Assembly (NCBI GenBank): GCA_021776475.1
Contig: JAJFFV010000006.1
Span: forward strand, 496,001 to 560,000
DNA length: 64,000 nucleotides
From: Parvularculaceae bacterium
GTDB lineage: Bacteria > Pseudomonadota > Alphaproteobacteria > Caulobacterales > Parvularculaceae
Direction of reading: 5' to 3'
The number at the start of each line of letters is the position of its first letter. Positions within the stretch are counted from its first letter, which is position 1. Shown piece by piece: positions 6,977-41,050 of this stretch. Below the pieces are notes generated by a model. It had not been told where the DNA came from, made no database searches, and saw only the letters and a list, made by a program, of their open reading frames with translations. Made by a program: the position numbers and the translations under genes.

Positions 6977-6985
6977 ACAAGAATT

Positions 6986-8358: not shown

Positions 8359-8370
8359 AACTATCGGGGA

Positions 8371-8982: not shown

Positions 8983-9075
8983 TATTGTCTCCAATATAAT
9001 TTGCTTAAAATATTTCGATTGAGCCTTAAGCGGTGTAACCTAATAACACCGCAATAAGAAATCAAATACTGAAGT

Positions 9076-9615: not shown

Positions 9616-9687
9616 CGGAAAGGTTTCTTGCATTCGCTGGCGCAGCCCGCTAATAAGCGTTTCTTTCCAATATCCAAGGAGTATCAT

Positions 9688-10056: not shown

Positions 10057-10118
10057 TATCCCGGTCTTGAAAGTCTTAGAGCCAGGGCAGGTGTCACCTT
10101 TGCCACGGGCAGTATGAG

Positions 10119-24700: not shown

Positions 24701-25877
24701 AGGAGAACGGGTCGTTGAGACGGGTTTTGTGAATATTCAGGACTGGGATAGCCACCCGTAATCCAGTGCCCGGTCCGCGGTTCGATTGTCGCAAATCAGG
24801 ACGGCCGGGTTCCTCAAGGCGTTGAATCAGACCGAGAGAGTTTGGCAGGCCAACTTCGGCAAATTGAGTTATGACATTGCGACCACCGCGCTCGAACACG
24901 CGGAACACATCTGCTGGCGGAATAACGTGCCAGGTCGGAAGGGGCGCAAATACGGGCAACGCGCCACGCGCCATCGCTTCGGCAGATGGCATTTTTTCGC
25001 ATCCAACGAGATCCAATACGGCGTTTGGTTCGGTTCGCTCGTCGCCGGGCGAGCATAAAGCGGCTGACTCGCCTTCGCGTGTATAAGCCTCACCGATAAC
25101 ATAGTTCTTATAGGGAAGGATCCCGTTGTTGTAAGATGCGCCGCCCCACAGCATTGCACCGGTAGCCATCATTGAGCGTTCGGCTGCTTGAATGATTTCC
25201 AGGTGGCAAGCACCGCATGCCTCGCGAGCAACACGATAATCAGACGGGTTTACAAATCGCAAGTATTCTGGAGATTCTTTGTTGAGGAGTGTGTAGCCAC
25301 GTTTAGGGTTCGCTGCTGAAGGCCAGTGCCAAGAATCTGGGTAAGTTGGCAGAACATGGGCCGCATTGCGATATTTTTCATATTCGTTTTTCGGTTCGAA
25401 GTAGCTTTTCTTCTTGCCTTTCTTGTCGCCTTTATGACCATCGTCCGCGTGATCATCTCCCTTATGGTCGCTTGTCGCGTAGCTATCACCTTCATGATCG
25501 TCGCCGTGAGAGCCGTCCGCATCACCATGAGAGTCGCCACCGTGACTACCGGCATATTTGGATCGCTCAACGCCTGCGGGAAGGAAAATTGATGAGTCAC
25601 CACCATGACAATCAACACATCCGAGATTGATCCCCGGCACATTGTGCATGGATTCTTCATCGGTTTCGGTGTGACAGCTCATGCAGCCATCGCTCTTCGC
25701 TCGAACCATTTCTTCCGACTGTGACTTCGGTGCCGACGGCGCGGTCACGTAGTTCACTTTTTGTGGTTTCTCTTTATCGCCCGCTGCAAATGTCGGTGAG
25801 ATCGATGCTAGCAGCAGAGAACCAACGGCCAGGAACAGCACAGTCAGCAGATATGTCTTGATTTCCGTACGCATCAT
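21747..25877 (-). CDS. Exported decaheme cytochrome c with C-terminal LVIVD propeller
   Basis: The 1376-residue product has a Sec signal peptide (cleavage near TFAAG). It carries ten CxxCH heme sites: CMSCH (65), CVDCH (87), CGACH (221), CASCH (409), then CMNCH, CADCH, CRDCH, CYTCH, CGGCH and CTDCH, all within the first 900 residues. Residues about 108–153 form an unusual His/Asp/Gly-rich segment with ten histidines, a possible metal-binding loop. From about residue 980, five or more LVIVD-type units occur (GIAVIDLDDP, GLEVLDITDL, GLIIVDIEKP), which predict a beta-propeller. It is last in the leftward operon, eight bases after the beta-barrel gene. It is probably the surface or outer-membrane-associated terminus of the electron chain. 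That placement, and whether it meets an extracellular donor or acceptor, is inference. I know no named homologue. Confidence 0.9.
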   Translation of the reverse strand: MMRTEIKTYLLTVLFLAVGSLLLASISPTFAAGDKEKPQKVNYVTAPSAPKSQSEEMVRAKSDGCMSCHTETDEESMHNVPGINLGCVDCHGGDSSIFLPAGVERSKYAGSHGGDSHGDADGSHGDDHEGDSYATSDHKGDDHADDGHKGDKKGKKKSYFEPKNEYEKYRNAAHVLPTYPDSWHWPSAANPKRGYTLLNKESPEYLRFVNPSDYRVAREACGACHLEIIQAAERSMMATGAMLWGGASYNNGILPYKNYVIGEAYTREGESAALCSPGDERTEPNAVLDLVGCEKMPSAEAMARGALPVFAPLPTWHVIPPADVFRVFERGGRNVITQFAEVGLPNSLGLIQRLEEPGRPDLRQSNRGPGTGLRVAIPVLNIHKTRLNDPFSWFMGSNDQQGDYRSSGCASCHVVYANDREIRHSMVYAKYGRDGTSISKDPTIPHDESGHPLEHKFTRAIPTSMCMNCHMHQPNMFLNTYYGYTMWDYESDAPFMWPKEQKYPTIEEQRTILDRNPEGAAVRGKWGDREFLRNVYDLNPQLKDTQFADYHGHGWNFRAILKRDRKGNLLDANGNIVANDDPEKWRKNGEGKFVEPGTNPGKTVHMMSIHAEVGMQCADCHFAQDSHGNGYIHGEVANAVEIRCRDCHGSADKYPTLLTSNVAARPGGTDLMALRNPDGRRRFEWINSDNRRVLIQRSITDPTLEWKVSLIKDSVTRGHPDFNEKSARAKTVSAIKNANGNFIWGAGVASADKAHNEDEMMCYTCHLSWTTSCGGCHLPIEANWKAKANKYEGDTTRNYATYNPQVARDQMFQLGKHQTTKNNAIAPVRSTSALVLSSTNVNRERIYVQQPPVSAAGYSSQAFAPHFPHTARLTETKTCTDCHVSDENDNNAIMAQLLLLGTNFVNFVGLHVWVGEEGAYEAVRVTEWDEPQAVFGSYLHKYAYPDYYGYHVERNGKELINWIRGKIFDTNNKGSGETGAVEEIANVRQTTGGTVNCLQARGEYLYVAEGKGGFRVYDIASIGNKGFSERSITAPFSPLGHDTRVNTANATCMALSTNQPINPLRNQGELMRVQNQEQPFHPLYSYAVVVDSLEGLILVNILTMGDGEPRNNFLKRDLTWNDNGVLNGARHITLAGHIAYVATDAGIAVIDLDDPMTPIHRGTIPLNDARASAVQFRYLWVTTANGLEVLDITDLKSPRPVPSATVSLADARKVYLARTYAYVAAGSEGLIIVDIEKPEQPQIYKRVTLDGQLSDAQDVIVATTNASLFAYVADGKNGFKVLQLTSPSLQPNFYGFSPEPNPEMIAWKKTKTPAIALSKGLDRDRGVDETGAQMAVFGRLGSRPFTRPEMEELFLDDNGAVFTVNDTPDMGSYVPN

Positions 25878-25885
25878 CTCGGTCC

Positions 25886-28249
25886 TTAATACGTCACTGT
25901 GCCGTTAAAGAGTATGGAATAGTAATAATCATCGCGCTCTTTGTTCTCGAAAAGATCTTCAAATCCTTGTCCAGGGAGCAATGCTGCGCCCGAAAGCCGG
26001 AACACGAAGTTTTGAATGAACCGCGGGCGATAAATCGTGGCAACTGAAACATCCCAGCCGATGGCCGGATCGATGTCGCCTTGGACGCGCAGCGCTTCGA
26101 CCGTGCTGGTATCGTCAAACCATATGTGATTAGCGTTCAACGTTACTCTGAGCGGCGGTGCAATATCGAAGTCGGCACCTGCACCAAGAAGAACCGTCCC
26201 TGGGTTAGCAAAGTTAGACTGACCTTGTTCTTTTGACGAGCGCAATGAATTGAGGACACCATTACGACCGTTGACGCCAATGACCCTGCCGCCGCCGGCA
26301 AATGGAATCGTCTGCCGGATCCAGTAGCTGGTGTCCGCTCCTGCGAATTGAGGATTCTCGAAAATCGCGTCGAAGCCTTCTTCTTTATCATCATATGGAT
26401 CGCTGTCGCCACTGGCATAAAGGCCTGAAAGACGAAAACGGATCCAGTTAAAGTCCAATGAGGGCTCGACAGCAGCGAAATATGCCCTGATGTCGGCTGG
26501 TTGGTTTGTAAAAATGCTGTTCCGGTTTTCGCCGAGTGCATAGTAGAAAGAAGCGGTCAGGTTCAGGCGCTTCCAGCGACCGTCGGCATTATAGCCTAAA
26601 TAAGTGACATCGTAGTCTCGGCCACGCAAACTACCAAGTAGGGCAGGGCGCACCGGAAAGCCGTTATCATCGATTGTGATCTGGCCTTTCTCTCGGTTCA
26701 TATTGTAGACAATCGTGCCCTGGCTGGTCATGCCCGGGAACGGAAAATCCTGGCGGTAGGCATTGGCGAGGAAAATATAGTCATCCCGGATTGATTTCGT
26801 GACGTCATTTAGCCCGGAATTAGTATCTTTTTCTAGTCGGGCAAACGCCGCAAGATTGTACTGCCAGCGATTGTTGTCGCGGTTACCGAAGAACCTCAGG
26901 CCAAACTGGTTGTCCTGAAACAGGAACCCACGAAAGTCCGTATTGAACGGTTGAATGCCAAAGCGGAGAGAGTCAAAATCATACCTGTCAGAGACGTTTC
27001 TGATATGGTAGTCGATGAACGCTTCTTGCAGGCCGACCCATAAATCCCGTCTGGTGGATCCTTTTGAAGGTTCAACAAAAAGAATACGTTTTTCGTTGAT
27101 ATCAACATAATTGTAGTTAAACGCAGCCGTCAGACGATATTCCAAGTCCTGTGGTTTGTAGGCAGTCGATCCCTTGATCAAGGCCGCCTGCGCTATAAAT
27201 GTTTGCGCTGCGACAAAGCTGTAGGCATCGCCAAACACGTCAAGGCGGCCGGGCGACTCAGTTGTCTGTACCCCAACAGGAACGGGGAAAGTCCGTGGCT
27301 CAATGATCGTGTCTGAAATGCCGCTCACGGCAAGAAACCAGTCGTCAAACCCTTTGATCGGCCTGTCACCCTTGAGCGTGTTTTGGCCGTAGGGGTTGAG
27401 TAGACTGTGATTGATCAAACCGAGATTAGATGCCAAGCGCCAGCGATCGGGAACAGGAATCGGATCGCCGGTAAGGTCAAACCGTGACGGCGGTGGCACC
27501 GCACCTGCCTCCGCTGGAGACACGCGGTTTTCTTCACCAATTTTTATGGGCCGACCAGGTCTGCGACGGCCATTGCCATTTACCGTTCCGTTAGACGGTT
27601 CGTCCGCGTAATATGTAACTGGTGTCAGGTTAACCGCCGGACCACGATCGCCGAGAGAGGCTTTGATGTCAGCGATAATTCCTTCCGCAGTCCAATCTTC
27701 ATCTTTTATATAGAGCGCGCCGGCAATAGCGTCGTTACTTTCCAGTGCCGCCTCAAGCTCACCCATCAACTCTTCCGTTTCAGGATCAGTTGCCTCGAGC
27801 AAATCTTCGGGCTGACCAGCAAAATGCGCGACAATGACATGATCCGGCACACTATTCTGGCGTTGCTGCCAAGTGTCAGTATGCAGTATCTCGACATTTT
27901 GATATTCCGCAACAGGCGCAAAATCCAGTATTAGTGGATCCTTTTCGAGTGAAGTATTAATGCTAGCGACGACATCTGTTTCAAGGCGGTGTCGCCAAGT
28001 ATCTGTGACCACAATCTCAACATCTTGATATTTTGCAATACGTGTAAGATCGAGTTTCAAAGGGTCAGTTTCAAGTGACGCCTTGACGCCGTCGATGATG
28101 TCGGCGGCGGTCAGGAGCACCGCTTCAGACTTACTGAGCCCGTGAGAGTCATTAGACGCATTGTAGCTGCAGGCAGACAACCCGGAAGCTGTCAGGACCA
28201 GAATGCTTGTCGACATCAACAGACGTTGATGGTTAGTCCTCGCGCCCAT
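25886..28249 (-). CDS. Outer-membrane beta-barrel with lipobox and N-terminal tandem repeats
   Basis: I place the start at ATG 28249, seven bases after GAGG; an ATG two codons upstream (28255) is too close to that site. The 787-residue product has a signal sequence ending in GLSAC, a lipoprotein box with Cys at about residue 27. Residues 55–130 hold two copies of a 35-residue unit (SLETDPLKLDLTRIAKYQDVEI and its counterpart, both followed by a TDTW). A third degenerate copy lies near residue 195. From about residue 270 to the end, alternating aromatic/polar strands and a terminal TVTY fit a large outer-membrane porin. It is four bases or so downstream of the GlcG lipoprotein gene and upstream of the decaheme gene, as expected of a porin in a porin–cytochrome conduit. 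No named family was recognised. Confidence 0.8.
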   Translation of the reverse strand: MGARTNHQRLLMSTSILVLTASGLSACSYNASNDSHGLSKSEAVLLTAADIIDGVKASLETDPLKLDLTRIAKYQDVEIVVTDTWRHRLETDVVASINTSLEKDPLILDFAPVAEYQNVEILHTDTWQQRQNSVPDHVIVAHFAGQPEDLLEATDPETEELMGELEAALESNDAIAGALYIKDEDWTAEGIIADIKASLGDRGPAVNLTPVTYYADEPSNGTVNGNGRRRPGRPIKIGEENRVSPAEAGAVPPPSRFDLTGDPIPVPDRWRLASNLGLINHSLLNPYGQNTLKGDRPIKGFDDWFLAVSGISDTIIEPRTFPVPVGVQTTESPGRLDVFGDAYSFVAAQTFIAQAALIKGSTAYKPQDLEYRLTAAFNYNYVDINEKRILFVEPSKGSTRRDLWVGLQEAFIDYHIRNVSDRYDFDSLRFGIQPFNTDFRGFLFQDNQFGLRFFGNRDNNRWQYNLAAFARLEKDTNSGLNDVTKSIRDDYIFLANAYRQDFPFPGMTSQGTIVYNMNREKGQITIDDNGFPVRPALLGSLRGRDYDVTYLGYNADGRWKRLNLTASFYYALGENRNSIFTNQPADIRAYFAAVEPSLDFNWIRFRLSGLYASGDSDPYDDKEEGFDAIFENPQFAGADTSYWIRQTIPFAGGGRVIGVNGRNGVLNSLRSSKEQGQSNFANPGTVLLGAGADFDIAPPLRVTLNANHIWFDDTSTVEALRVQGDIDPAIGWDVSVATIYRPRFIQNFVFRLSGAALLPGQGFEDLFENKERDDYYYSILFNGTVTY

Positions 28250-28258
28250 CGACATACC

Positions 28259-30418
28259 TCACTTCCCTTGACAAACATTTTGTTCGCTTGACCCGACAAA
28301 CGGATTAAACGGACAACTTACGTACCGTAGCCTGATTTCCTCACCGTTCACCGTTACGGTTATGTTGTCAGCGCGAATTGCTGGCGGTGCATTGTTGATC
28401 GTCCCGAGCCTCAAGCCTGCATTGTGCAGACCAAGGAAGGAGATCATGTCATCCTGATCGATCCCGTCACCTGAAACGCCAATGCCGCCAACGAGGTTGC
28501 CGTCACGATAGATCGGTACACTTCCAGGGAATATCTGAATTCCGTTCTGTAGACGGTTTTCTCCGACATCACCTGGATTATCAGCCTCCGGAAGGAAAGT
28601 GCATCGCTGCGCGGTGTCTGTTGTAATCAACTGACTATCATCGCCGGTGATCCGTTTCAAAGGTTGCAGCACATAAGCGACGTGCTCGACGATGTTGTCC
28701 AGCACCAGATCCACTTGCAGTCCGACGGCGAAAGGACTCCACGATGTTATTGGAATTGAGAGCGGTCCGTTTACGGTACCGACTTCGCCATCCGGGAAAT
28801 ACGGACGAGAGAGGTTACCACCCGACCGGTCTGCAAAAGCGACGTCACCAGTCAGAGCGTTTGCATCACCAACAAAATCCCGGACGATCTGAACATAATC
28901 CCGTTCGTTAGGGTCAGGGACGATTTGTCCGAAAACCAGCGACGGATCACCTCTGACAAGATCAGCGAGACCGCTTGTTCCGTGGCCCTGTAAGTCGGGT
29001 GCCGCGAAACGGCCGGAGAAAAAGGCCGCTGTGCGCGCTTTCTGCAACGACACGTCGGTCCCGAAAATCGGCGCGTCTGGACCACGGACAACACCGAGGA
29101 TCACGCCATTTGTATCGACGACCGAAACCGTCACCTGTGCCAGGCTGTTTAAGGGTTGGCGGATCTGCCCCCGCGCTTGTGCCATAATCCCAAAGGCTTC
29201 TTCAAGCAGAACTTGCACTTCGGTCGCCGTCAGCGGTTGGGCGACAGTACCCGCGTCTGTGGCCGCTATTGGCGGGAATCGGTTGTTACCAAAGCCGTCG
29301 GTCAGAATATAAGCGTCGGGGTTTGCAAACTCACCTGCTGTAACAGGTCTGATGCCTGACGCCTCGGAACCATAGGCTGTCCCGGCGCGGATCGCTACGC
29401 TCGTCGGGTCCTCAAAATCGCCAAAGTATCCGTTGACCTGCGTCAGGCTCCCGGAGGTGCCATTGATCGACGCAAATGATGGTGCCGTGATCGGGTCGGT
29501 CATCAGGTCGGCAGGTGCCGCATCGGAAAAACGCAGGAAGGTACCGTCAACCGTGATCCTGTTGGCTCGAATATTTGTTGGCGCGGCAAATCCCGTCGTT
29601 CCTGCCACCGCTACGAGTTCTTCAATATCCGTATCAAAATCAAGTGTGTTCGTATCGAAGCCGTAGTCATCGTCGATGGAGATACCGATGCCACCAACCA
29701 CAACACCGTTCTTATAAAGCGGCATGCCTCCGGGGTCAGCAGAAAGACCAACCGGCGCCCTTTGCGGTCCGATCATGCCGTCCGCGTTCGTATTAATCGT
29801 CCCATCTGGATTTATTGCCCGGCTGATAAGATCAGAACAGGGTAATTGGCTGAATTGGACACCAAAAAGCGGGCCACTTTCGAGGCCGATTGTCGTTGGT
29901 GATGGCGGAAAATGTTCCTGTACAATCTGGCTCGCCGTTCGTGATGTAAAGGCGTTGCCCATCGAGGCAAGGTAGGCGCCCGTTACCGCTTTTGAAATCG
30001 CCGTCATCGATCGCGGTACGATGAATAATCCTTGTACGCCGCGATTATCGGCAACCAGGCCCGATGGTCCAGAGCGAATGACTTCAACGAAATTTTCAAG
30101 ATTATCCAACGTTGCCCGGTCATCTTCGGTGCCGGTCATCGAGAAAACGGCGAGGACATTTCCGACACGATCGACGATCGCAATCACGGCCGGTTGACCG
30201 CGAGCGGAAGCTTCTCCAACCGCCTGAGCGATAATAATTTCAATATCGCCGACAGTCAGGTTTTCAAGGGCAGGAACATCAAACGTTGCTTTAGCGCCTG
30301 GTGGAGGAGGGCCGCCGGTTGGTGGCGGTGCAGGATCGCCGCCGCCGCCGCTACACGAAGCTGCGAGCGCCAGCACAGACCCGCAAAGCAAGGGTTTCAG
30401 GATATTCCTGACCTTCAT
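28259..30418 (-). CDS. Lipoprotein with two GlcG/HbpS heme-binding-type domains
   Basis: ATG at 30418 is preceded by GGAGG with good spacing. The 719-residue product has a lipobox (LALAASC, Cys at residue 22) followed by Gly/Pro-rich linker. Two GlcG/HbpS (DUF336) domains follow: the first opens with LENLTVGDIEIIIAQAVGEA and PAVIAIVDRVGNVLAV, the second with LTATEVQVLLEEAFGIMAQA and VTVSVVDTNGVILGVVRG. Each closes with a GG-hairpin (YKNGVVVGGIGIS; YRDGNLVGGIGVS). Some members of this family bind heme or cobalamin. The protein is likely anchored in the outer or inner membrane facing the periplasm. A duplicated, lipid-anchored form inside a cytochrome operon suggests a heme or electron-transfer accessory role; this is inference. 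Confidence 0.88.
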   Translation of the reverse strand: MKVRNILKPLLCGSVLALAASCSGGGGDPAPPPTGGPPPPGAKATFDVPALENLTVGDIEIIIAQAVGEASARGQPAVIAIVDRVGNVLAVFSMTGTEDDRATLDNLENFVEVIRSGPSGLVADNRGVQGLFIVPRSMTAISKAVTGAYLASMGNAFTSRTASQIVQEHFPPSPTTIGLESGPLFGVQFSQLPCSDLISRAINPDGTINTNADGMIGPQRAPVGLSADPGGMPLYKNGVVVGGIGISIDDDYGFDTNTLDFDTDIEELVAVAGTTGFAAPTNIRANRITVDGTFLRFSDAAPADLMTDPITAPSFASINGTSGSLTQVNGYFGDFEDPTSVAIRAGTAYGSEASGIRPVTAGEFANPDAYILTDGFGNNRFPPIAATDAGTVAQPLTATEVQVLLEEAFGIMAQARGQIRQPLNSLAQVTVSVVDTNGVILGVVRGPDAPIFGTDVSLQKARTAAFFSGRFAAPDLQGHGTSGLADLVRGDPSLVFGQIVPDPNERDYVQIVRDFVGDANALTGDVAFADRSGGNLSRPYFPDGEVGTVNGPLSIPITSWSPFAVGLQVDLVLDNIVEHVAYVLQPLKRITGDDSQLITTDTAQRCTFLPEADNPGDVGENRLQNGIQIFPGSVPIYRDGNLVGGIGVSGDGIDQDDMISFLGLHNAGLRLGTINNAPPAIRADNITVTVNGEEIRLRYVSCPFNPFVGSSEQNVCQGK

Positions 30419-30542
30419 TTCCACCTCCCCCGAAGCCTTTTAAGCTCAGGTCCTCACAATCTCATCTCAAGACTAAAACCATCGTCGTGATCCTGCAACC
30501 AAATGTCGCGGGTGTTGCCTATATTTTATCCGGTCACTTGCA

Positions 30543-31901
30543 TCAAAGTCTGTTAACTTGTGTTGCAATTCGTTTGAATGCGTCGCGCATTCTGTTTTGA
30601 TTATACCTGTTGGGTTCGTTTACGACGTCGTAAGCCGCGTCAATCGACGGGCGCATATTTGTCGCGGCTTCATATGAAATGTGGTTTTCTGCCAATAGCG
30701 CTTCAAGAAAGGTATCCACTGCGATAATAGCCTGCTCAGCCGCTGAGTAGTCTGTGTAGCGGTTGGTTACATTATCATTCACGATCGTTTTCATAATCGA
30801 CAGTGTCTCGCTCTTGCTGAACTCCTCGGCTGCCATGCGCTCTGACAGGTTTTTAGCCATGCCCAGAAGATTGCCTGTAGCGGATTGGTACGACCCGCCT
30901 CCCGCAGAAGACACAGAACGGTGAAAGCGGATACCAGCCTGCCGAAGTTCGTCTTCCATCTCAGGCGCGACAGTTTTCACGGCCGCCTTTAACATGATGA
31001 GATTGGCGTCGTTAAATACCGGGACACCTGGTCCGAGTGCCCGATCAGGATTCGCCCGCCAGGTTGGCCGCCAATCAGGATCGTTGGAAAATGTCAGGTG
31101 GCAGGCGTGGCAATCGAAAAAAACCAACTCTGGGAAAGCCCCTTCACGGCCACGTACCGGATCGGAGAAAAGTTCCAGCTGCCTTTGCAGAGCCATCGCC
31201 TGCCCGATCGCCCAGGTTTTGACGCCGCCGGCGGCGTTCTTACGTGTTCGATAATCCGTATCTTCGTCGTGATGACTTTGTAAATTAGTAAACAGATCGA
31301 GCTCGAAAGAGATCCGTGGGTGACCGGCGCCCATGATTCGGTGGGTGATGAATTGGTTTGGCGCCTCCGAACCAAGGTGACAGCCGAGACAAAGTTTCGC
31401 TCGGGCGACTGGATCTTCGGTTCGATACAAGCCATTGGTGGTATTTTGTTCGTGCGTCTGGCCTGGCGCATAGTGGCTGGTAAGCCAGTTTTCGGAGCCG
31501 CCGTGGCATGCTTCGCAACCGACGCCTTCGGAAATATCAAACCGCTCGCCGCGCTGTTCTTCAGGAATATAATCTGAATGGCAGGCGAGACACTCCTTCG
31601 CCTCGTGCGCCGGTCCGATCCCAAGATTGCGCGCAATAATGCGAGATTTTTGGTTCAGCAAAACCTTGTAAGCGCGAGAGTGCGCGCCGCTTATGTCGCT
31701 TTGATCCTGCCAGGTGATGATTTCATTCTGGCGAACATTGTTGCCAGTCGCGGACTGCCTGCTGTGGCAGGTCGAGCCGTAGCAGGAGATGACGCCTTCA
31801 TGGGTATAACTATCCAGAATGGGTGTCGGATTTTCTTGAGCTGCCGCCTGACCGGCTATGGTCACGAAGCCTATAGCTATCAGTAAAGCACGCAGTTTCA
31901 T
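30543..31901 (-). CDS. Periplasmic pentaheme cytochrome, cytochrome c554-like
   Basis: The first gene of the leftward operon; ATG at 31901 follows AAAGGGGG. The 452-residue product has a signal peptide ending GQAAAQE. Heme sites are CYGSTCH (a CX4CH variant near residue 40), then CLACH, CEACH, CLGCH and CHACH, five in all. The arrangement of the first 280 residues resembles the cytochrome c554 family of tetraheme and multiheme carriers. The C-terminal 170 residues are helical and heme-free. It probably shuttles electrons across the periplasm between the inner-membrane FHA decaheme cytochrome and the outer-membrane complex. The 124-base gap to the next gene has no strong terminator. Confidence 0.88.
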   Translation of the reverse strand: MKLRALLIAIGFVTIAGQAAAQENPTPILDSYTHEGVISCYGSTCHSRQSATGNNVRQNEIITWQDQSDISGAHSRAYKVLLNQKSRIIARNLGIGPAHEAKECLACHSDYIPEEQRGERFDISEGVGCEACHGGSENWLTSHYAPGQTHEQNTTNGLYRTEDPVARAKLCLGCHLGSEAPNQFITHRIMGAGHPRISFELDLFTNLQSHHDEDTDYRTRKNAAGGVKTWAIGQAMALQRQLELFSDPVRGREGAFPELVFFDCHACHLTFSNDPDWRPTWRANPDRALGPGVPVFNDANLIMLKAAVKTVAPEMEDELRQAGIRFHRSVSSAGGGSYQSATGNLLGMAKNLSERMAAEEFSKSETLSIMKTIVNDNVTNRYTDYSAAEQAIIAVDTFLEALLAENHISYEAATNMRPSIDAAYDVVNEPNRYNQNRMRDAFKRIATQVNRL

Positions 31902-32067: not shown

Positions 32068-34518
32068 GTGGGGCAGGTCTATAAGATTGCGGTGGTTGGT
32101 TCTGGGCCAGCGGGGCTTAGCGCTGCCGTGCATGCCGCCAAACTCGGACTGCCTCACGTTCTCCTCGAAAAGACGGACCATCTTTCTGATACCATATATA
32201 AGTACCAGCGAGGAAAATACGTCATGGCGACACCAGATGTACTGGTGCTGCGGTCGGATACTTCTTTCCAAGCGGGTACGCGCGAAGAAATTCTTGGCGT
32301 TTGGGACAACGAATGTGAATTTCACCAAACCAACGTCCAGTTAAACGCAGATGTTCAGAAGATTACCGGCGAAAAAGGTAATTTCACCATTCAAACCGCA
32401 GCTGGCGACACCATACTCGCGGAGCACGTAATTCTGGCGATCGGAACGCAGGGTAACCCCAACACGATGAGATGCCCAGGCGGTGACATGCCGTTCATCC
32501 AGTATCAGCTGGATGATCCAAAAGAATATTTTGACGAAAACATTGTTGTTGTTGGTGGCGGTGATGCCGGTATCGAAAATGCACTTGGTCTCGCTGATGA
32601 TCCGGGTCAGGGCAACAACGTCACATTGCTTCAGCGTAGCGATGGCTTTCCTCGATCAAAGCCCGCCAACGTAGCACTCCTCGAATCAGCCAAGGCACAA
32701 GGCAAACTGGATTTCCTGACGGGCACAACGCCTGTGAAAGTTGAACCGGGCGTGTTGACTGTAGAAACCCCGGACGGTCAGGCAGACTTGCCGGTCGATC
32801 GGATCATTGCGCGACTTGGGAGCGCGCCGCCACGTAAATTCGTCGAATCAATTGGTATTGAGTTTGGCGGCCCCGACCGTGACGCCCTACCGGTCTTGTC
32901 GGAAGTGTTTGAAAGCAGTGTTCCGGGCGTCTTTGTCGTTGGCGCGCTTGCTGGTTATCCTTTGATCAAACACTGTACCAACCAGGGCTACGATGTTGTT
33001 GAGTTTATTAATGGCAATACTGAGCTTAAACCGGCTGACGAACCCATCCTACGAGATATTTTTGACGGCCTCCCTGGTGAGTACGAAGTCTCGGATTGGC
33101 TCGAAATTCTGCGTAACAAGGTTGATATCTTCAAGGATGTTTCAGTGCTGCAGCTTCGCGAATTCATGCTCGAATCGACCATGCATTATAAAAAGAAAGG
33201 TGAGGTTGTATTTGAACGCAACGCGCTTGGAGATTCGTTGTTCGCAGTTGTCGGCGGCACGGTGAATGTTGAGATTAACCCTGCTGATACCAGCATCGTT
33301 GTACCGTTGGGCGATGGCGAGATTTTTGGTGAGATCGGTCTGATTTCAGGGCGCCGTCGTGGCGCAACTATCCGCGCCGGAGCGCCGTCAATCCTGGTCG
33401 AGATGCCTGCGCGCGCGGCGAAAAAACTGATCGCAACGACGCCGGCAGTTAAACGGGCAGTGGACGATATTGCGACCGAGCGTCAGATCAAACAAATCTT
33501 CGGTAATGATATTTCGCCAGAGTGGATCGACCGCCTCAAAGCCACCGCCGAATTGCTGCAGCTAAAAGCCGGCGAAACAATTATTCAGGAAGGTGATGTC
33601 AGTACCGACGTTTTCATTATTCGATCAGGCAGCGTGATCGTCGAAAAGAACATTGGCGGCAAAGAAATCTTTTTGTCTTATGTTGCTGCTGGTGCCTTTA
33701 TTGGTGAAATGGCGCTCTTTGAGGAAGGAAAAAGAACGGCGACTGTCCGTACGACAATTAAATCAGAAGTCATCAAATTGCCTGGCGACATATTCAGCGC
33801 GATGATGGACGAGCGCCCGATGATCCGTAAGCGAATAGAGGAAACGATCGCAGCAAGACGCGAGGTCAATTCGTTTATTGAGTCACAAAAAAGTGGCTTT
33901 GGATCGGTCGTTGACTTGTATAGTTCGGTTGCAAACTTTCTGCTGGAGGAAGGCTTGGGCGAGGCGACGGATGCCCTCCTCATCGACGAAAGCTTGTGCG
34001 TTGGTTGCGACAATTGCGAAGTTGCGTGTGCTGAAACGCATTTGGGCATTTCGCGCCTCGACCGTGAGGCCGGGAAGACATATGCCAATATCCACGTCCC
34101 GACATCATGCCGGCACTGCGAACATCCACACTGCATGGGCGATTGTCCGCCTGATGCAATCCGCCGTGCGCCAGACGGAGAGGTCTTTATCAACGAGACC
34201 TGTATCGGCTGTGGAAACTGTCAGCGAAACTGCCCCTATGGCGTGATCCAGATGGACCGCGTTCCACCGAAAAAGCCTGGCCTTCTTCAGTGGTTGTTGT
34301 TCGGGGCAGGGCCGGGGCCGGGCCAAGCAGACAAGGCGTGGGTCAACAAGGTTGCTACAGAAGCAGAAAAAACGGGTATGAAAGTCGCGGTTAAGTGTGA
34401 CATGTGTAAAGGGATCAAAGGCGGCCCCGCTTGCGTCCGGGCGTGCCCGACAGGTGCTGCCATCCGTGTCTCTCCAGAGCAGTATTTAAATGTCGCTCAG
34501 CGCAAGGGGAGTGTCTAA
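32068..34518 (+). CDS. FAD/NAD(P)-oxidoreductase–double cNMP-binding–four [4Fe-4S] fusion protein
   Basis: Starts at GTG 32068, seven bases after GGGGAG. The 816-residue product has no signal peptide and is probably cytoplasmic. Residues 1–320 are a two-dinucleotide-binding flavoprotein (GSGPAGLSAA and VVVGGGDAGIENA) of the thioredoxin-reductase/YpdA fold, without a CxxC redox pair. Two cyclic-nucleotide-binding domains follow (about 350–450 and 490–590); the second has the classic FIGEMALFEEGKRTATV, the first a looser FGEIGLISGRRRGAT. Residues 640–800 contain four cysteine groups typical of four [4Fe-4S] clusters as in DmsB/HybA/NrfC electron-transfer subunits: CVGCDNCEVAC, CRHCEHPHCMGDC, CIGCGNCQRNC and CDMCKGIKGGPACVRAC. 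It likely passes electrons between NAD(P)H and the membrane protein encoded next. The cNMP domains suggest allosteric control. No catalytic molybdopterin subunit is present. Confidence 0.9.
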   Translation: MGQVYKIAVVGSGPAGLSAAVHAAKLGLPHVLLEKTDHLSDTIYKYQRGKYVMATPDVLVLRSDTSFQAGTREEILGVWDNECEFHQTNVQLNADVQKITGEKGNFTIQTAAGDTILAEHVILAIGTQGNPNTMRCPGGDMPFIQYQLDDPKEYFDENIVVVGGGDAGIENALGLADDPGQGNNVTLLQRSDGFPRSKPANVALLESAKAQGKLDFLTGTTPVKVEPGVLTVETPDGQADLPVDRIIARLGSAPPRKFVESIGIEFGGPDRDALPVLSEVFESSVPGVFVVGALAGYPLIKHCTNQGYDVVEFINGNTELKPADEPILRDIFDGLPGEYEVSDWLEILRNKVDIFKDVSVLQLREFMLESTMHYKKKGEVVFERNALGDSLFAVVGGTVNVEINPADTSIVVPLGDGEIFGEIGLISGRRRGATIRAGAPSILVEMPARAAKKLIATTPAVKRAVDDIATERQIKQIFGNDISPEWIDRLKATAELLQLKAGETIIQEGDVSTDVFIIRSGSVIVEKNIGGKEIFLSYVAAGAFIGEMALFEEGKRTATVRTTIKSEVIKLPGDIFSAMMDERPMIRKRIEETIAARREVNSFIESQKSGFGSVVDLYSSVANFLLEEGLGEATDALLIDESLCVGCDNCEVACAETHLGISRLDREAGKTYANIHVPTSCRHCEHPHCMGDCPPDAIRRAPDGEVFINETCIGCGNCQRNCPYGVIQMDRVPPKKPGLLQWLLFGAGPGPGQADKAWVNKVATEAEKTGMKVAVKCDMCKGIKGGPACVRACPTGAAIRVSPEQYLNVAQRKGSV

Positions 34519-34519
34519 C

Positions 34520-35404
34520 ATGGCTCGGACAAAACCCAATAGAAAAACGCACCGCGACGATGCGCAACATGTGAGTTTCCTCCGCCATCGGAATTTCAGA
34601 TATTTGAAATTGGCGATGCTGATCTCAATAGTTGCGATAATCGCCTATTTCTTTGTTGATCCAACACCGCGACACAATGGTGGAACCTGGTATGGATATA
34701 CTTTGGGAACAATCGGTGCTGGCCTTATCGTTTGGTTGACCTTGCTCGGCATTCGTAAGCGCGCAATTACCCAGGGTGCCTGGAGTTTGAAAGCGTGGAC
34801 ATCCGCTCATGTATACCTTGGACTTTCGCTGCTCGTCATCGCAACGCTGCACACTGGATTTCAGTTTGGTTGGAATGTGCACACGCTTGCTTATACACTG
34901 ATGATGATTGTGATCATTTCCGGGGCGTTTGGCATTTATTTTTACTCAAATGTTCCTCGGATGATGAGTGAGAACAGGGCTGACAACACACAGCAGGAAA
35001 TGATTGCGGAACTCAACGCCATCGATGCCCAGCTTGAGGATGCTGCCAGACCGCTATCCGCTCAGTATGTCTCAGAAGTTCAACGTGCCATCAATGACAC
35101 CAAGATAACCGGCGGGCTATTTACACGGCTGTCTGGCCGTGTGAATAAATGTGCATCGATGCGAGCATTATCTCGACTGCGAGCGGTAACGGAGGGATCG
35201 ACGACATCTGTGGATGAGGCCGGTGAGGACCTCGGATCGGTGATCAGTATTCTCGATCGCAAATCCGTTATGCTCAATCGGGTCAGGAGGCATATCAGGT
35301 ACAAGACCTTGCTCGAGTTATGGCTCTATGTCCACGTGCCATTCACCATTTTTCTGCTGGGTGCGCTAACGGCGCATATTCTCAGCGTATTCTTCTATTG
35401 GTAG
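34520..35404 (+). CDS. Membrane diheme cytochrome b-like subunit
   Basis: ATG at 34520 starts two bases after the preceding stop. The 294-residue product has a basic cytoplasmic start and five predicted membrane segments (about 31–46, 58–77, 96–113, 124–142 and 270–293). Two of these carry His pairs spaced H-x13-H: His97/His111 and His272/His286, the arrangement that holds two stacked b hemes in cytochrome b-type subunits. A soluble acidic loop of 115 residues separates segments four and five. It probably takes electrons from (or gives them to) the iron–sulfur protein and connects to the periplasmic decaheme domain of the next gene product. No named family was recognised; it is distantly like ferric-reductase or cytochrome b561 subunits. 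Confidence 0.82.
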   Translation: MARTKPNRKTHRDDAQHVSFLRHRNFRYLKLAMLISIVAIIAYFFVDPTPRHNGGTWYGYTLGTIGAGLIVWLTLLGIRKRAITQGAWSLKAWTSAHVYLGLSLLVIATLHTGFQFGWNVHTLAYTLMMIVIISGAFGIYFYSNVPRMMSENRADNTQQEMIAELNAIDAQLEDAARPLSAQYVSEVQRAINDTKITGGLFTRLSGRVNKCASMRALSRLRAVTEGSTTSVDEAGEDLGSVISILDRKSVMLNRVRRHIRYKTLLELWLYVHVPFTIFLLGALTAHILSVFFYW

Positions 35405-35411
35405 GCGGCTC

Positions 35412-37319
35412 ATGACTTTTATTATCAGAAAAATCCGTCGTCGGCCTAATGGGCAGGAAGTTGTTCGTGATCAACCGGTACTGAAAAGCGAACTGACTGT
35501 AGGGCGAGCGACGGATTGTGACATCTACTTGCCAGACCTTCGTGTCAGCCTCAATCACGCGCAGATCGAAGCGGCGGGAACCAGCATTCGCGTCGTTGCA
35601 ACGAGCGACCGGCCGGTACAAGTTAAAAACAAACTCGGAAACCGCTTTGTTTTCTCGCACAAGGATCAGGCGGAAGTTGAGATCGGCCCCTACCAACTTA
35701 AGATTTACAAGGAAGAAGGTAGCGACTCAATTGTCGTTGCTACTGAACGGATTGAAGAAAAAACGCCAACGTTGCAGCCCGAAGACGAATCGAAACTCTT
35801 CTCATTGAAAAAAACTCTGCCCGGCAAGCGATCTTCGGCTTGGTTTTTGACAGTGCTGGCTGTCGCGGGATCCATATTCGTTCCTTTGTATTATTTCTAT
35901 ACAGATCGAAAAGCCGACGTCGCCGAGCCGATCCAGACCCGTGCAGACCAGGAACTTATCGGCATCCGGTCTGACCAATGGTGGCTGTCGGGTGAAATGT
36001 CGACTGCTCACACGAGCCTGGCTGACAATTGTAATTCATGCCACTTGAACGCTTTTGAGTCGGTCAAAGACGAAACCTGTTTATCATCAGGATGTCACGA
36101 CAGTCTCAGAAATCATGCGGACACGACCGATTTGAAAACCGCACGAGAGCCCTTGTCTCCTTTCGGTATGATGTTACGCCAGACTGCGGACTTTGTCGGC
36201 AAGGCCGATATGCGTTGCGCATCTTGTCACCTTGAGCACAATGGGCGTGATGGTATCATACTGACAACAGAATCTCTTTGTGGTGATTGCCACAACGAAA
36301 TGGATACGCGGCTGGCAGACACAGATTTGATCAATGTTGGGTACTTTGACAAAGATCACCCGAACTTCCGCGCAACCGTTGTTGTTGAACCTGATAGGCA
36401 AAATCCGCTGACCAGGCGTGTCAGCCTTGATGAAAATCCGACCTCCAATTCAGGCCTCAAATTTCCTCATGATATTCACATGGAGGCCGGCGGGGCGGTT
36501 GAGAATGACCTTGAGGGGCTCGCTGATACATACGGTTTTGGCGAGAAACTGGTTTGCGAAGACTGTCACAAAGCGAACACAGCTGGTGCATTGTTTCTGC
36601 CCATTCAAATGGAAAAACACTGTGGTATGTGTCATTCGCTGGGCTTCGACAAGGATCCCGAGACTGGCTACGTCCGAACCCTTCGACACGGTGAACCGGA
36701 AGATGTTGTCGCAAGTATGCGTGACTTCTATAATTCAACTGCGGCTGTTCTTTTTGAGAGCTCCAATGAAGTCGGTGGCCGCCGCCGGCCTGGAGATGTT
36801 GCCAGGTTGCGCCAGGATCGCCGTTTGGTAGACGCGCTAGTCGGCGCGGATGAGCGCAGCAATGACAAAATCAGAGAGATTTTTAACGAAGGCGGGGCCT
36901 GTTTTGACTGCCACACGATTGTGCAGCCGTCTGATCCAGAGTCAGTCGATTATAATATTTCGCCGGTTTCGGTCGAAGAGACCTTCATGCCAAAGGCTAT
37001 TTTCCACCACGACAGTCACGACAATATGGACTGCGTTGATTGCCATGACGCAGAAACTTCTGGCGAAGCCAGCGATGTCTTGATGCCGGGTATCGATAAT
37101 TGCCTCGACTGTCACCGCGGTGAGACGACGGTCAACTTCATCCCGTCAAATTGCCTCATGTGCCATGAGTATCATGACGAGGACCATGTCCCATTCATGA
37201 CCCCGGCTAAGACCTCCCGGCACGCGGCCTTGTGGCCATCTCGCAAAAATGACACCGCCGACAACAGCGCTATTGCTGCGGCGATGGAGTTGTCAACGAC
37301 GATCGCCGGTGGCAAATAG
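35412..37319 (+). CDS. FHA domain–transmembrane–decaheme cytochrome c fusion
   Basis: The 635-residue product has three parts. Residues 1–105 form a cytoplasmic FHA domain with GRATDCDIYL and SLNHA, the phosphothreonine-binding loops. A membrane segment at about 142–163 follows a basic KRSS, so the rest is periplasmic. The C-terminal part has nine CxxCH sites (CNSCH, CASCH, CGDCH, CEDCH, CGMCH, CFDCH, CVDCH, CLDCH, CLMCH) and one CX4CH (CLSSGCH, residues 223–229), ten in all. FHA domains read phosphorylation on partner proteins. Joined to a multiheme electron carrier through the membrane, this is a rare architecture that could couple protein phosphorylation to electron flow or complex assembly. 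It lies seven bases downstream of the cytochrome b gene and 33 upstream of ccmF. Confidence 0.9.
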   Translation: MTFIIRKIRRRPNGQEVVRDQPVLKSELTVGRATDCDIYLPDLRVSLNHAQIEAAGTSIRVVATSDRPVQVKNKLGNRFVFSHKDQAEVEIGPYQLKIYKEEGSDSIVVATERIEEKTPTLQPEDESKLFSLKKTLPGKRSSAWFLTVLAVAGSIFVPLYYFYTDRKADVAEPIQTRADQELIGIRSDQWWLSGEMSTAHTSLADNCNSCHLNAFESVKDETCLSSGCHDSLRNHADTTDLKTAREPLSPFGMMLRQTADFVGKADMRCASCHLEHNGRDGIILTTESLCGDCHNEMDTRLADTDLINVGYFDKDHPNFRATVVVEPDRQNPLTRRVSLDENPTSNSGLKFPHDIHMEAGGAVENDLEGLADTYGFGEKLVCEDCHKANTAGALFLPIQMEKHCGMCHSLGFDKDPETGYVRTLRHGEPEDVVASMRDFYNSTAAVLFESSNEVGGRRRPGDVARLRQDRRLVDALVGADERSNDKIREIFNEGGACFDCHTIVQPSDPESVDYNISPVSVEETFMPKAIFHHDSHDNMDCVDCHDAETSGEASDVLMPGIDNCLDCHRGETTVNFIPSNCLMCHEYHDEDHVPFMTPAKTSRHAALWPSRKNDTADNSAIAAAMELSTTIAGGK

Positions 37320-37352: not shown

Positions 37353-39371
37353 ATGATTGCTGAATTTGGACACTATGCGCTGGTACTCGCGCTAATCGTT
37401 GCCTTCTTGCAGGTGATCATCCCCTTGCGCGCTGCCCATACAGGCGATGAGAGGGGCATGACATTTGCTAAATATGCGGCGTTTGCGCAGTTTGTCCTTA
37501 TTCTCATAGCTTTTTTTGCGCTGATGAATGCCTATGTGACTTCTGACTTCAGTGTGCAGAATGTCTACCAGAACAGCCACTCTGAGAAGCCGCTGATTTA
37601 CAAAATCTCCGGCGTATGGGGCAACCACGAAGGATCAATGCTGTTGTGGCTTTTGATGCTTTCTTTTTTGGGTGCGTTAGTAGGCATTTTTGGGGGCAAT
37701 CTTCCACCATCGTTGCAGGCGAGGGTGCTTGGCATTCAGGCGCTGGTCGGAACAGGATTCTTGGCGTTCTCATTGTTCACCTCAAATCCGTTCTTGAGAA
37801 TGGACCCGGTGCCAATAAATGGACAAGATCTGAACCCGCTATTGCAGGATCCCGGCCTCGCGTTCCACCCGCCATTTCTCTATTTGGGCTATGTCGGCAT
37901 GTCAGTTGCTTTTTCATTCAGCGTAGCAGCCCTTCTTGAGGGGCGGGTAGATCCTGCCTGGGCGCGCTGGGTCCGCCCATGGACATTGCTCGCGTGGTCA
38001 AGTCTCACACTTGGGATCGCGATGGGGGCCTGGTGGGCGTATTACGAATTGGGCTGGGGCGGTTATTGGTTCTGGGATCCAGTAGAAAACGCTTCATTGA
38101 TGCCTTGGCTGGCGGGCACCGCTTTGTTGCACAGCGCAATTGTTGTCGAGAAACGCAATACGTTAAAGCTTTGGACCATCTTTATGGCGATAACCGCATT
38201 CTCAACGTCTTTGCTTGGCACGTTCATTGTGCGCTCTGGTGTGCTGACCAGCGTTCATTCTTTCGCCAACGATCCGGATCGCGGGGTTCTATTGCTCGCT
38301 TTGTGTGTAATTCTGACAGGCGGCGCGTTCGTCCTCTACGCCATCCGTGGTCAGGCGATGAAAGCGGGCGGCACTTTTCAAACAGTTAGCCGCGAATCCG
38401 CCCTCATTATGAACAATCTTATTTTGTCGGTTATTTTGTTCATCGTTTTGCTCGGCACCTTTTGGCCAACAATATCGGAGCTGATTTTTGGGAACCGTCC
38501 GTCCGTTGGCCCGCCATATTATAATATCTTCGCAATACCTTTGATGACCGTGCTGGCTGTTTTTATGGCTTTTGGGATTTTGTTACCGTGGAAGCGGGGT
38601 GATCTCAAGACGGTTATGATCCGGCTCAAATGGGGTGCCGGGATCGCGGTTATTTTGACGATAGTGGCGTTCTATTTGTCAGGCTTCAAAAACATCCTCG
38701 CTGTTGTCGGGTGCCTGATAGGATTCTGGATTATCCTGAGCACATTGACCGACATATCCTTGCGCATGAAACTCTTTAACGGACCGATCCAAACAAGTTT
38801 GCGTCGCGCGTCTGGCTTTCCGCGGTCGTTTTGGGGCGGTTCACTCGCGCATTGCGGCGTTGGTGTTACTATTCTTGGAATGGTCGGGACTTCATTGTGG
38901 GTAACTGAGGAACAAACCATCATGACGCCAGGCGACACCATCGAAATCGCCGGATATCAGTTGCGCATGGAAAAGATCGAAAACCTAAATATTGCTAACT
39001 ACCAAAGCGAAATGGGCACTTTCAGTTTGATCAAAAATGGCACTGTGGTGAATATTCTGAAACCTGAGCGCCGTTGGTATCCGGTTGCACAGCAGCAAAC
39101 CGTAGAAGCGGCTATTCAGCCGCGTTGGGCGGCAGACGTCTACGTCGCACTCGGTGATCCCCGCGGCGAGAATAATGAAGCACGTATCGTGAGGGCTTAT
39201 CATCACCCGCTGGTCATGTATCTGTGGGGTGGCAGCGTGTTAATGGCGTTTGGCGGTATTGTCTCGATAACGGACCGGCGCTACAGGGTCGGCGCACCAA
39301 AACCAAAAGCCAGAAAGGCTGAGAAACCTGACGCGGTGGGTCCAATGCCCGACGCGGTGCCGGCGGAGTAG
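37353..39371 (+). CDS. ccmF: Cytochrome c heme lyase subunit CcmF
   Basis: CcmF takes heme from holo-CcmE and attaches it to CxxCH sites in the periplasm. The 672-residue multi-spanning product carries the WWD-type motif WGGYWFWDPVENASLMPWLAGT, the early VWGNHEGSMLLW, and FHPPFLYLGYVG, with a soluble periplasmic loop near residues 510–610. It is 33 bases after the FHA–decaheme gene and five before ccmH. In alphaproteobacteria ccmF usually follows ccmI and ccmE. Here ccmE is absent from the window, ccmI is inverted, and cytochrome structural genes lie upstream. Confidence 0.95.
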   Translation: MIAEFGHYALVLALIVAFLQVIIPLRAAHTGDERGMTFAKYAAFAQFVLILIAFFALMNAYVTSDFSVQNVYQNSHSEKPLIYKISGVWGNHEGSMLLWLLMLSFLGALVGIFGGNLPPSLQARVLGIQALVGTGFLAFSLFTSNPFLRMDPVPINGQDLNPLLQDPGLAFHPPFLYLGYVGMSVAFSFSVAALLEGRVDPAWARWVRPWTLLAWSSLTLGIAMGAWWAYYELGWGGYWFWDPVENASLMPWLAGTALLHSAIVVEKRNTLKLWTIFMAITAFSTSLLGTFIVRSGVLTSVHSFANDPDRGVLLLALCVILTGGAFVLYAIRGQAMKAGGTFQTVSRESALIMNNLILSVILFIVLLGTFWPTISELIFGNRPSVGPPYYNIFAIPLMTVLAVFMAFGILLPWKRGDLKTVMIRLKWGAGIAVILTIVAFYLSGFKNILAVVGCLIGFWIILSTLTDISLRMKLFNGPIQTSLRRASGFPRSFWGGSLAHCGVGVTILGMVGTSLWVTEEQTIMTPGDTIEIAGYQLRMEKIENLNIANYQSEMGTFSLIKNGTVVNILKPERRWYPVAQQQTVEAAIQPRWAADVYVALGDPRGENNEARIVRAYHHPLVMYLWGGSVLMAFGGIVSITDRRYRVGAPKPKARKAEKPDAVGPMPDAVPAE

Positions 39372-39376
39372 TTTCG

Positions 39377-39859
39377 ATGACCAATTTCCAGAAACTTACC
39401 GCTGCATTTTGCCTTGCATCAATAGTTAACTTGCAAGCCGGATACGCCGTAGATCCTGACGAAGTTCTTCAAGATCTTGCGCTTGAACAACGGGCGCGGG
39501 AAATCTCAAAAGGCTTGCGTTGTGTCGTGTGCAAAAATCAGTCGATTGATCAGTCAGACGCCTCACTCGCGAAGGACTTACGGTTGCTTGTCCGCGAACG
39601 TCTTATGGCCGGCGATTCGAATGAAGAAGTTACCAGCTACATTGTCGACAGATATGGCGAGTTTGTTCTGCTACGCCCACAGTTTTCATCGAAGAACCTA
39701 TTCTTGTGGGGGGCGCCATTGTTCATGCTTGGTGCCGGCGGGTTCCTTGCCGTCTATTTCCTCCGTCAGCAGAAAAAACCGGCAGCCGAGCCTCAGCCGC
39801 TAGACGCCGATGAACAGGTCGCACTGGCTGATCTGATAAAAAACCAAGACGAGAGTTAG
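39377..39859 (+). CDS. ccmH: Cytochrome c maturation thiol protein CcmH
   Basis: CcmH keeps apocytochrome cysteines reduced for heme attachment. The 160-residue product has a signal peptide, the redox motif LRCVVCKNQSIDQSDA, the three-helix domain ending YGEFVLLRPQF, and one C-terminal membrane anchor (about 108–127). ATG at 39377 has GGAG upstream. It is tail-to-tail with ccmI, separated by 24 bases. Confidence 0.94.
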   Translation: MTNFQKLTAAFCLASIVNLQAGYAVDPDEVLQDLALEQRAREISKGLRCVVCKNQSIDQSDASLAKDLRLLVRERLMAGDSNEEVTSYIVDRYGEFVLLRPQFSSKNLFLWGAPLFMLGAGGFLAVYFLRQQKKPAAEPQPLDADEQVALADLIKNQDES

Positions 39860-39883
39860 AGTTTCCTCGTCTGGATCTGGCTG

Positions 39884-41050
39884 TTACTCAAGGTCCAGCG
39901 CCGCTTTGGCTTTTGCATCATCTGGCGACAATCGCAGGATTTGTTCATAGGCATTCTGGGCCTCGTCTAGGCGTCCCAGAACGGTATATGACCGTGCGAG
40001 CCGTTGCCAGCCGGCGAGGTCGTCGGGATTTTTTTCAAGTCGTGCGGCGAGGCCGGCAACCATCCCCTCAATCATTTGACCCTGTTGATCACCTGTCATG
40101 TTTTGCGCGGCGCTGATGTCGGCCGTCGTTGGTCCCTCAAAACCGTCACTTGAAGGCGGTGTAACAGGTTGAGCTGGCGCGGGCGTCGTCGCCGCAAGTT
40201 CGCCTCCGTCCCGAACCGCCGTCATCTGCTGTTGGACAACCGGTAGCCATGGTGCATCAGGTGGTGAATTGTCAATTAGTCGTTGCCAGTCCGCCATGGC
40301 GCCAACGGTGTCACCATTTTGAGCTTTTGCCAACCCGAGATAGTATGTCGCCTGAGGGTCATTGGGATTTTCCTCGACGAAAGCGGTGAAGATCATGCGT
40401 GATTCAGGTCCTACAATGCCGGCATTCCCAACGACCAGCGTTTCGGCATACTCGGCCGCCAGTTGGCGGTCCCTGCCGCCGACTATTCGGTTGGCTTCGC
40501 GGTAGGCTTCAATCGCCTCGTTATATCGATTTAAGTTAACGAGAGATCGCGCCAGCAATGCCCAGCCTTCTGCATCATCAGGATTTTCTCGCAATCTCGC
40601 CGTTAGGGTCTCGACCATATCGCCCATACCGGAGTGCATCCCATCAGCACCGTCTGGCGCGATCGCCAGATCTTGCCGTTCACCAAACGCGGATGCAGGC
40701 TGATCCGGACTGCCCTGCAAAAAGTAAATGATGCCAGCGACAACCGGCATCAGCCCGAGGAGACCAAACCACAGCAATGGCGTCTTTTTCGCGCCACCGG
40801 ATGGACTCATATCTTCTGACTTAGCTTCGGCAAGCATGCGCCGCTCTATCTCGGTACGCGCGGCGGCCTCTTCTTCAGGTACGATCATGCCGCGTTTGAC
40901 ATCACGATCGAGTTCGGCGAGCTGGTCGCGGTAGATTGAGATATTGTATTCGCTTTTGACTGCTTTTTCATCAAGCCCTCGAAAATACGGGACGATGAGG
41001 ATCGTGACGATGACGAACGTCAGCAAGGCGCAAACAACAAACAATACCAT
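39884..41050 (-). CDS. ccmI: Cytochrome c maturation protein CcmI (CycH)
   Basis: CcmI holds apocytochromes and presents them to the CcmF/H heme lyase. The 388-residue product has two membrane segments (about 3–21 and 91–110) with a short coiled coil between them (YRDQLAELDRDVKRGMI, the family signature), then a periplasmic TPR domain (NPDDAEGWALLARSLVNL and two further repeats, with a last one NPDDLAGWQRLARSY). A Pro/Ala-rich linker precedes the last repeat. It is transcribed opposite to ccmF–ccmH, which is unusual, since cycHJKL is normally one operon. Confidence 0.93.
   Translation of the reverse strand: MVLFVVCALLTFVIVTILIVPYFRGLDEKAVKSEYNISIYRDQLAELDRDVKRGMIVPEEEAAARTEIERRMLAEAKSEDMSPSGGAKKTPLLWFGLLGLMPVVAGIIYFLQGSPDQPASAFGERQDLAIAPDGADGMHSGMGDMVETLTARLRENPDDAEGWALLARSLVNLNRYNEAIEAYREANRIVGGRDRQLAAEYAETLVVGNAGIVGPESRMIFTAFVEENPNDPQATYYLGLAKAQNGDTVGAMADWQRLIDNSPPDAPWLPVVQQQMTAVRDGGELAATTPAPAQPVTPPSSDGFEGPTTADISAAQNMTGDQQGQMIEGMVAGLAARLEKNPDDLAGWQRLARSYTVLGRLDEAQNAYEQILRLSPDDAKAKAALDLE

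Follow-up and report, generated by a model that had tools for sequence, protein, structure and literature searches.

A gene of a Parvularculaceae bacterium, at positions 35412–37319 (+) of the window (the 64,000-nucleotide stretch of DNA analysed here), encodes a 635-residue protein in which an FHA domain is followed by a single membrane helix and ten c-type heme sites. With moderate confidence we interpret this FHA-decaheme protein as the periplasmic arm of an electron conduit that would span the cell envelope, with a degenerate FHA domain that would dock a cytoplasmic subunit carrying FAD, cyclic nucleotide-binding (CNB) domains and Fe-S clusters. Electrons would be exchanged between NAD(P)H and this FAD/four-[4Fe-4S] protein, would pass two b hemes in a five-helix membrane protein, and would be carried in the periplasm by the ten c hemes of the FHA-decaheme protein, with an outer-membrane barrel and an exported decaheme beta-propeller protein forming the final stage; we infer both this order and the direction of flow. 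The FHA domain, probably acting independently of phosphorylation, would hold the decaheme beside the FAD/CNB/FeS subunit, and if the conduit is regulated, a cyclic nucleotide acting through the two CNB domains would be the likelier signal. Most trans-envelope conduits described so far are taken to draw on the quinone pool and to be controlled transcriptionally. Should the set move electrons across the envelope, a widespread route would have been overlooked, and one in which post-translational control of extracellular electron transfer could be tested directly.

An FHA domain fused to a decaheme cytochrome

The initial annotation described an open reading frame (ORF) with FHA loops, a membrane segment, nine CxxCH motifs and one CX4CH motif, and the frame on the forward strand matches that description exactly. 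The FHA fold occupies about residues 1–105 and is followed by a linker, by a helix at residues 141–164 (35832–35903, +) that is the one hydrophobic segment in the hydropathy analysis, and by heme sites between residues 207 and 585, all C-terminal to the helix. The loops GRATDCDIYL and SLNHA are G31–L40 and S46–A50, and the CX4CH motif is C223-LSSG-C228-H229; among the loci read for heme motifs this variant is confined to the window and two loci of the same genus (L003 and L004).

In Pfam searches the FHA model (PF00498) matches with 25.4 bits, above its curated cut-off of 20.7, and the YscD cytoplasmic-domain model (PF16697) has a better E-value (7.8e-7), scoring 29.7 bits with the whole protein and 33.6 bits with residues 1–118 alone against a cut-off of 33.2. 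At E 0.01, 43 of 45 family members are matched by the YscD model and 40 by the FHA model. An AlphaFold2 model of residues 1–118, built with 44 relatives, has a pLDDT of 94.8; in Foldseek its best solved match is OdhI (E 4.5e-5), followed by GarA, and VIA-align gives Z-scores of up to 10.8, to Ki67 (rmsd 2.6, 95 aligned residues). The fold computed for residues 1 to about 105 is the FHA beta-sandwich.

The C-terminal part is matched by cytochrome c7/c3 models and, with multiple CxxCH motifs after a membrane segment, can be classed from its motifs as a multiheme c-type cytochrome. An alignment of 33 sequences shows no variation at the ten heme sites, at Trp191 and Gly194, or at nine additional histidines, and these nine could plausibly serve as second ligands to the hemes. 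Attachment of c-type hemes takes place in the periplasm, and the FHA domain therefore lies on the cytoplasmic side. The order of FHA fold, single helix and ten heme sites is borne out by the structural model and its matches and by hydropathy, as is the proposed placement of the FHA domain in the cytoplasm by the site of heme attachment, and a role as an inner-membrane-anchored electron carrier is supported.

Distribution of the FHA-decaheme family

Loci of relatives were gathered with two cytochrome peptide patterns taken from seven sequences, and counts by locus are given for 80 titled loci, the best 80 of 107 confirmed; because the patterns derive from the cytochrome, these loci were not selected for an FHA domain. 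Most are from MAGs, and their record titles, some of which look doubtful, place them in the Alpha-, Beta- and Gammaproteobacteria. A single ORF spans the FHA region and the cytochrome in 79 of these best 80 loci, the exception (L126) being an ORF that starts at a contig end, and exactly ten CxxCH motifs are present in 77 of the 78 fused ORFs longer than 500 amino acids. The recurrence of a single ORF at 79 of the 80 rules out a fusion produced by chance or artefact.

Homologs are present in 14 of 61 relatives and in 38 of 385 genomes sampled from the class (the window's own genome is counted in both, and a few homologs are partial). Across the phylum, at least 15 of 398 sampled genomes contain a near-full match to the family model, taken by eye as a match over more than 400 model columns with at most three candidates scored per genome, and 166 of the 398 contain a match of any kind, most of them partial. 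Within the window's genome, a search for FHA domains at E 0.001 returns 35412–37319 and nothing else.

The phosphothreonine site of the FHA domain

Residue counts refer to 87 sequences, derived from 123 ORFs of the gathered loci with at least nine CxxCH motifs and a W..G motif; removal of those with identical last 400 residues left 104, of which 88 matched at E below 1e-100 and 87 had the N-terminus present. These relatives are akin to one another and do not represent independent observations.

Several patterns emerge at the positions that bind phosphothreonine. First, Gly31-Arg32 (35502–35507, +) is present in all 87 relatives. Secondly, at Ser46-Leu-Asn-His49 (35547–35558, +) the histidine is kept in 61 of the 87 and the serine in seven, and the two are found together in four, all of the window's genus. 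Thirdly, the place of the canonical S-x-N-G loop is occupied in the window by Ser65-Asp-Arg-Pro68 (35604–35615, +), as judged by us from the model strands, loop counts and an alignment to GarA; the loop reads ATSDRPV, and in our alignment the canonical Asn position is thus an Arg. An Asn-Gly pair occurs within loop 63–69 in only three of the 87, and in another register. In the alignment GarA itself has both the Ser (in VSRRHA) and the loop Asn (in SLNGT), and eight free-standing FHA domains of related genomes, found with the model of the FHA-decaheme family and read by eye as controls, have the Ser in seven cases and Asn-Gly in seven; two further control loci (L128 and L137) gave no match to the family model and are outside the eight counted.

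The set of residues required for phosphothreonine binding (Gly-Arg, Ser, His and the loop Asn) is therefore incomplete in the window's own copy, where G31, R32, S46 and H49 are all present and the loop Asn is absent, and judged by these residues the site is largely gone across the family. A phosphate pocket at these loops would agree with the invariant Gly-Arg and with Ser46 and His49 of the window, but not with the missing loop Asn or with the rarity of the Ser among the relatives. With Arg32 unchanged in every relative, the domain may still bind a ligand that is acidic or phosphorylated.

These losses weigh on the idea that the FHA domain reads phosphorylation, binding phosphothreonine (or phosphoserine) in the cytoplasm and so coupling a kinase signal to the electron carrier. 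It would account for the fold, for the constancy of Arg32 and for the retention of Ser46 and His49 in the window's genus; it is difficult to reconcile with a family that has largely lost the Ser, the Ser-His combination and the Asn-Gly loop, when the free-standing FHA domains of related genomes mostly retain their site residues. The distribution of kinases bears on the same question, and was tabulated for 60 genomes, some of them incomplete drafts, comprising 35 of the 37 of the window's family, one further genome of the order (G054), and 24 of the 37 carriers in the class besides the window's genome. Pkinase (PF00069) is above cut-off in 18 of 38 carriers, which is in favor of phosphorylation reading, and in 16 of 22 non-carriers, all from the window's family; it is thus lacking at that threshold from 20 of the 38 carriers as against six of the 22 non-carriers. 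Among the carriers of the family, with G054 included, six of 14 have it, and within the window's genus (G000–G005), where numbers are small, it is found in none of four carriers and in both of two non-carriers.

The initial annotation had suggested looking for Ser/Thr kinases and phosphatases in the same genome, and a whole-genome profile search there placed nothing above the Pkinase cut-off and found nothing for PP2C_2. The Pkinase match below cut-off is to a frame of 507 residues that we take to be UbiB. Seven HipA-type matches and one HprK-type match are present and count in favor of phosphorylation reading, and there are seven class III cyclase matches above cut-off. From these profiles, the window's species is unlikely to use a Hanks-type kinase for phosphorylation, other kinases exist, and cyclic nucleotides are probably made. 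Given the site residues and the kinase counts, we regard phosphorylation reading as very improbable and reject it as the most likely main function of the domain.

Genes of the module

The two genes to the left of the FHA-decaheme gene are transcribed in the same direction. The first (32068–34518, +) encodes an 816-residue cytoplasmic protein in which Pfam and NCBIfam models identify a YpdA/TrxR-like FAD/NAD(P) region and two CNB domains, along with 16 cysteines. These form four [4Fe-4S] patterns and, like the CNB residues E422, R431, E547 and R556, are kept in at least 90% of 64 sequences. The cytoplasmic partner of this protein would be NAD(P)H or NAD(P)+, and we note that Fer4 and FAD domains fit other redox work too. 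The second (34490–35404, +) encodes an inner-membrane protein of 304 residues with five hydrophobic segments by hydropathy, which matches PF01292 only far under the cut-off. Two histidine pairs, H107/H121 and H282/H296, are kept in at least 90% of 78 sequences; they are stacked in two segments and appear to be placed for binding two b hemes across the membrane, and in di-heme b-type reductases the His pairs are likewise stacked in two segments.

Further members are transcribed leftwards. A predicted outer-membrane beta-barrel (25886–28258, −), with a lipobox-like LSAC recognized by eye, has 18 longer strands by our count within residues 304–786 of its AlphaFold2 model, and ends in Tyr787. The mean pLDDT is lowered to 66.5 by poor modelling of roughly the first 300 residues; blocks within 304–786 are mostly at 75–96, with lower values around 321–340 and 631–660. 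The closest solved barrel in the PDB by Foldseek is the alginate exporter AlgE (E 3.1e-15), and porins also match. Both the predicted fold and the C-terminal aromatic residue are those of an outer-membrane beta-barrel. An 18-strand barrel of the AlgE type need not hold a cytochrome, and the MtrB barrel is wider. Next to it are an HbpS-like protein with four stretches of PF03928 and a lipobox-like AASC, also read by eye (28259–30424, −), and a decaheme protein with LVIVD beta-propeller repeats (21747–25904, −), a 1385-residue ORF with ten CxxCH motifs and an N-terminus that by eye is signal-like. A c554-like cytochrome with four CxxCH motifs and one CX4CH motif (30543–31901, −) is an optional member, as seen from Pfam and synteny; the occurrence of a CX4CH among CxxCH sites is common to this protein and the FHA-decaheme protein. 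Directly downstream of the latter are the cytochrome c maturation genes for CcmF and CcmH (37353–39859, +; Pfam), and CcmF, CcmH and CcmI together adjoin the module at 37353–41050; CcmF/CcmH are found at seven and CcmI at nine of the best 80 of the 107 loci.

Neighbors were counted by tblastn at E 1e-5 within a 9-kb flank, and since loci end early at contig ends or at the flank limit the counts are lower bounds. Among the best 80 of 107 loci, the membrane protein is found at at least 78 and the FAD protein at at least 74, such that the FHA-decaheme protein is usually accompanied by a flavin/Fe-S entry protein with CNB domains. The barrel is present at at least 54 of the 80, the LVIVD decaheme at at least 48 and the c554-like cytochrome at at least 24. 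The HbpS-like protein is kept beside the conduit genes at at least 57. At least 42 of these 80 loci have the order FAD protein, membrane protein, FHA-decaheme, HbpS, barrel, LVIVD decaheme on one strand.

Across the 61 relatives the barrel is found in 13, all among the 14 that carry the FHA-decaheme protein, and in none of the 47 non-carriers; the one carrier without a barrel match (G022) is a draft of 460 contigs. The membrane protein is near full length in the same 14 carriers; three further matches are weak and lie elsewhere or represent a second copy. In one genome (G015) about 1.7 Mb of the same contig separate the inner-membrane trio (L158) from the c554–HbpS–barrel–LVIVD set (L159), and the retention of both sets despite this distance argues for joint function rather than mere neighborhood.

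Two related genomes contain modules with a different composition, one at 480–11339 of G046:C23 (L156) and the other at 3244–9068 of G036:C7 (L157). In each, the membrane protein has a distant homolog (tblastn 1e-10 in L156; 7.6e-11 in another search and no tblastn match in L157), accompanied by an FAD/Fe-S protein without CNB domains. They also encode a protein with 24 (L156) or 21 (L157) CxxCH motifs, with no FHA match in a Pfam scan of these frames, and a second protein with 27 or 19 CxxCH motifs.

One alternative is that the barrel, HbpS-like and LVIVD proteins serve another kind of export, such as polysaccharide or heme handling, with the inner-membrane trio as reductant and no electron crossing of the outer membrane. 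The likeness of the barrel to AlgE, and the naming of HbpS-like domains for heme degradation, would both fit this; the ten CxxCH motifs of the LVIVD protein would not, nor would the related modules, which adjoin proteins with 19 to 27 CxxCH motifs as in the PCC3 systems discussed below. We consider it rather unlikely, and prefer the reading in which electrons would cross the outer membrane.

Docking of the FAD/CNB subunit to the FHA domain is suggested by the adjacency of their genes and by just two loci, L156 and L157, in which both the FHA and the CNB domains are absent. The FHA domain may instead be purely structural, contributing to folding or stability of the membrane protein without a specific partner, as was concluded for the N-terminus of EssC. 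That the YscD cytoplasmic-domain model matches nearly all of the family members examined agrees with this, and according to PMC4925161 the EssC FHA region, of a type VII secretion system (T7SS), lacks the residues that bind phosphothreonine and has no partner found, and the protein truncated for it is undetectable. Such a role is unlikely, since the invariance of Gly31-Arg32 is more than a scaffold seems to require, and the joint absence of FHA and CNB domains from the two related modules also argues against it. Returning to docking as the preferred role, we tentatively speculate that cyclic nucleotides at the CNB domains switch the docking of the FAD/FeS protein to the FHA domain, and so gate a wire from NAD(P)H to the cell surface post-translationally; Arg32 would then contact an acidic or, in some genera, a phosphorylated site. 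Though possible, such gating is doubtful, and cyclic-nucleotide control of the conduit in any form is conjectural.

Comparison with known systems

OdhI and GarA are soluble, phosphothreonine-binding FHA proteins. They are the nearest solved FHA structures to the domain of the window, and differ in that their FHA domains are not fused to a cytochrome. A parallel in architecture is offered by EssC and by YscD of type III secretion systems (T3SS), in which an FHA fold also precedes a membrane helix and, in EssC, the phosphothreonine residues are also lost (PMC4925161); the FHA domain of the window differs in being fused to a multiheme cytochrome and in having no apparent role in secretion.

The same conduit could run inward, from an extracellular or periplasmic donor to the reduction of NAD(P)+, an alternative that we hold to be possible yet doubtful. 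The carriers include heterotrophs, namely Colwellia echini, Oceanibacterium hippocampi and Glacieibacterium frigidum, and this stands against it. In its favor, Table 1 of PMC10734462 enters under 'Other' a 'Forkhead-associated protein' with ten hemes, cluster 403, for 27 of 87 genomes of iron-oxidizing Gallionellaceae; by that entry it pairs an FHA domain with ten hemes as the window's protein does. The term 'Forkhead-associated' is tabulated there once, without discussion. Apart from this table, our search of the open literature found no text pairing an FHA domain with a multiheme cytochrome or CXXCH, none pairing LVIVD with multiheme, and none joining cyclic nucleotide-binding, multiheme and extracellular electron. 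The FHA/ten-heme pairing has thus been seen, and within the open literature searched it has not been explained.

MtrCAB and MtoAB, with CymA, share with the set of the window an inner-membrane entry point, a ten-heme periplasmic carrier, a barrel and an exported decaheme (in part after PMC10734462). The entry point differs, as that of the window would be a flavin/Fe-S protein rather than one using quinol, and so does the decaheme, for which identity with DmsE was rejected (TIGR03508 scores 21.7 bits, with its cut-off at 192.2). The Hmc, Qrc and Ext models of NCBIfam match the decaheme and neighboring proteins far under their cut-offs, and these matches were set aside.

The closest overall likeness is to PCC3 of the Gallionellaceae, which, as described in PMC10734462, consists of a periplasmic protein with 21–27 hemes, an extracellular multiheme protein, a porin and a conserved inner-membrane protein. 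The two related modules, L156 and L157, resemble PCC3 in layout, and the set of the window has analogous parts, namely an inner-membrane protein, a periplasmic multiheme protein, a predicted outer-membrane barrel and a putatively exported multiheme protein; homology, which is distant, is seen for the membrane protein against L156 and L157. The set is thus best seen as a variant of a conduit of the PCC3 kind. It departs from PCC3 in that its periplasmic cytochrome has ten heme sites rather than 21–27, is anchored in the membrane and bears an FHA domain, in that its FAD/Fe-S protein has two CNB domains, and in the addition of the HbpS-like protein; the variant thus has CNB and FHA domains together, with a cytochrome that is shorter and tethered.
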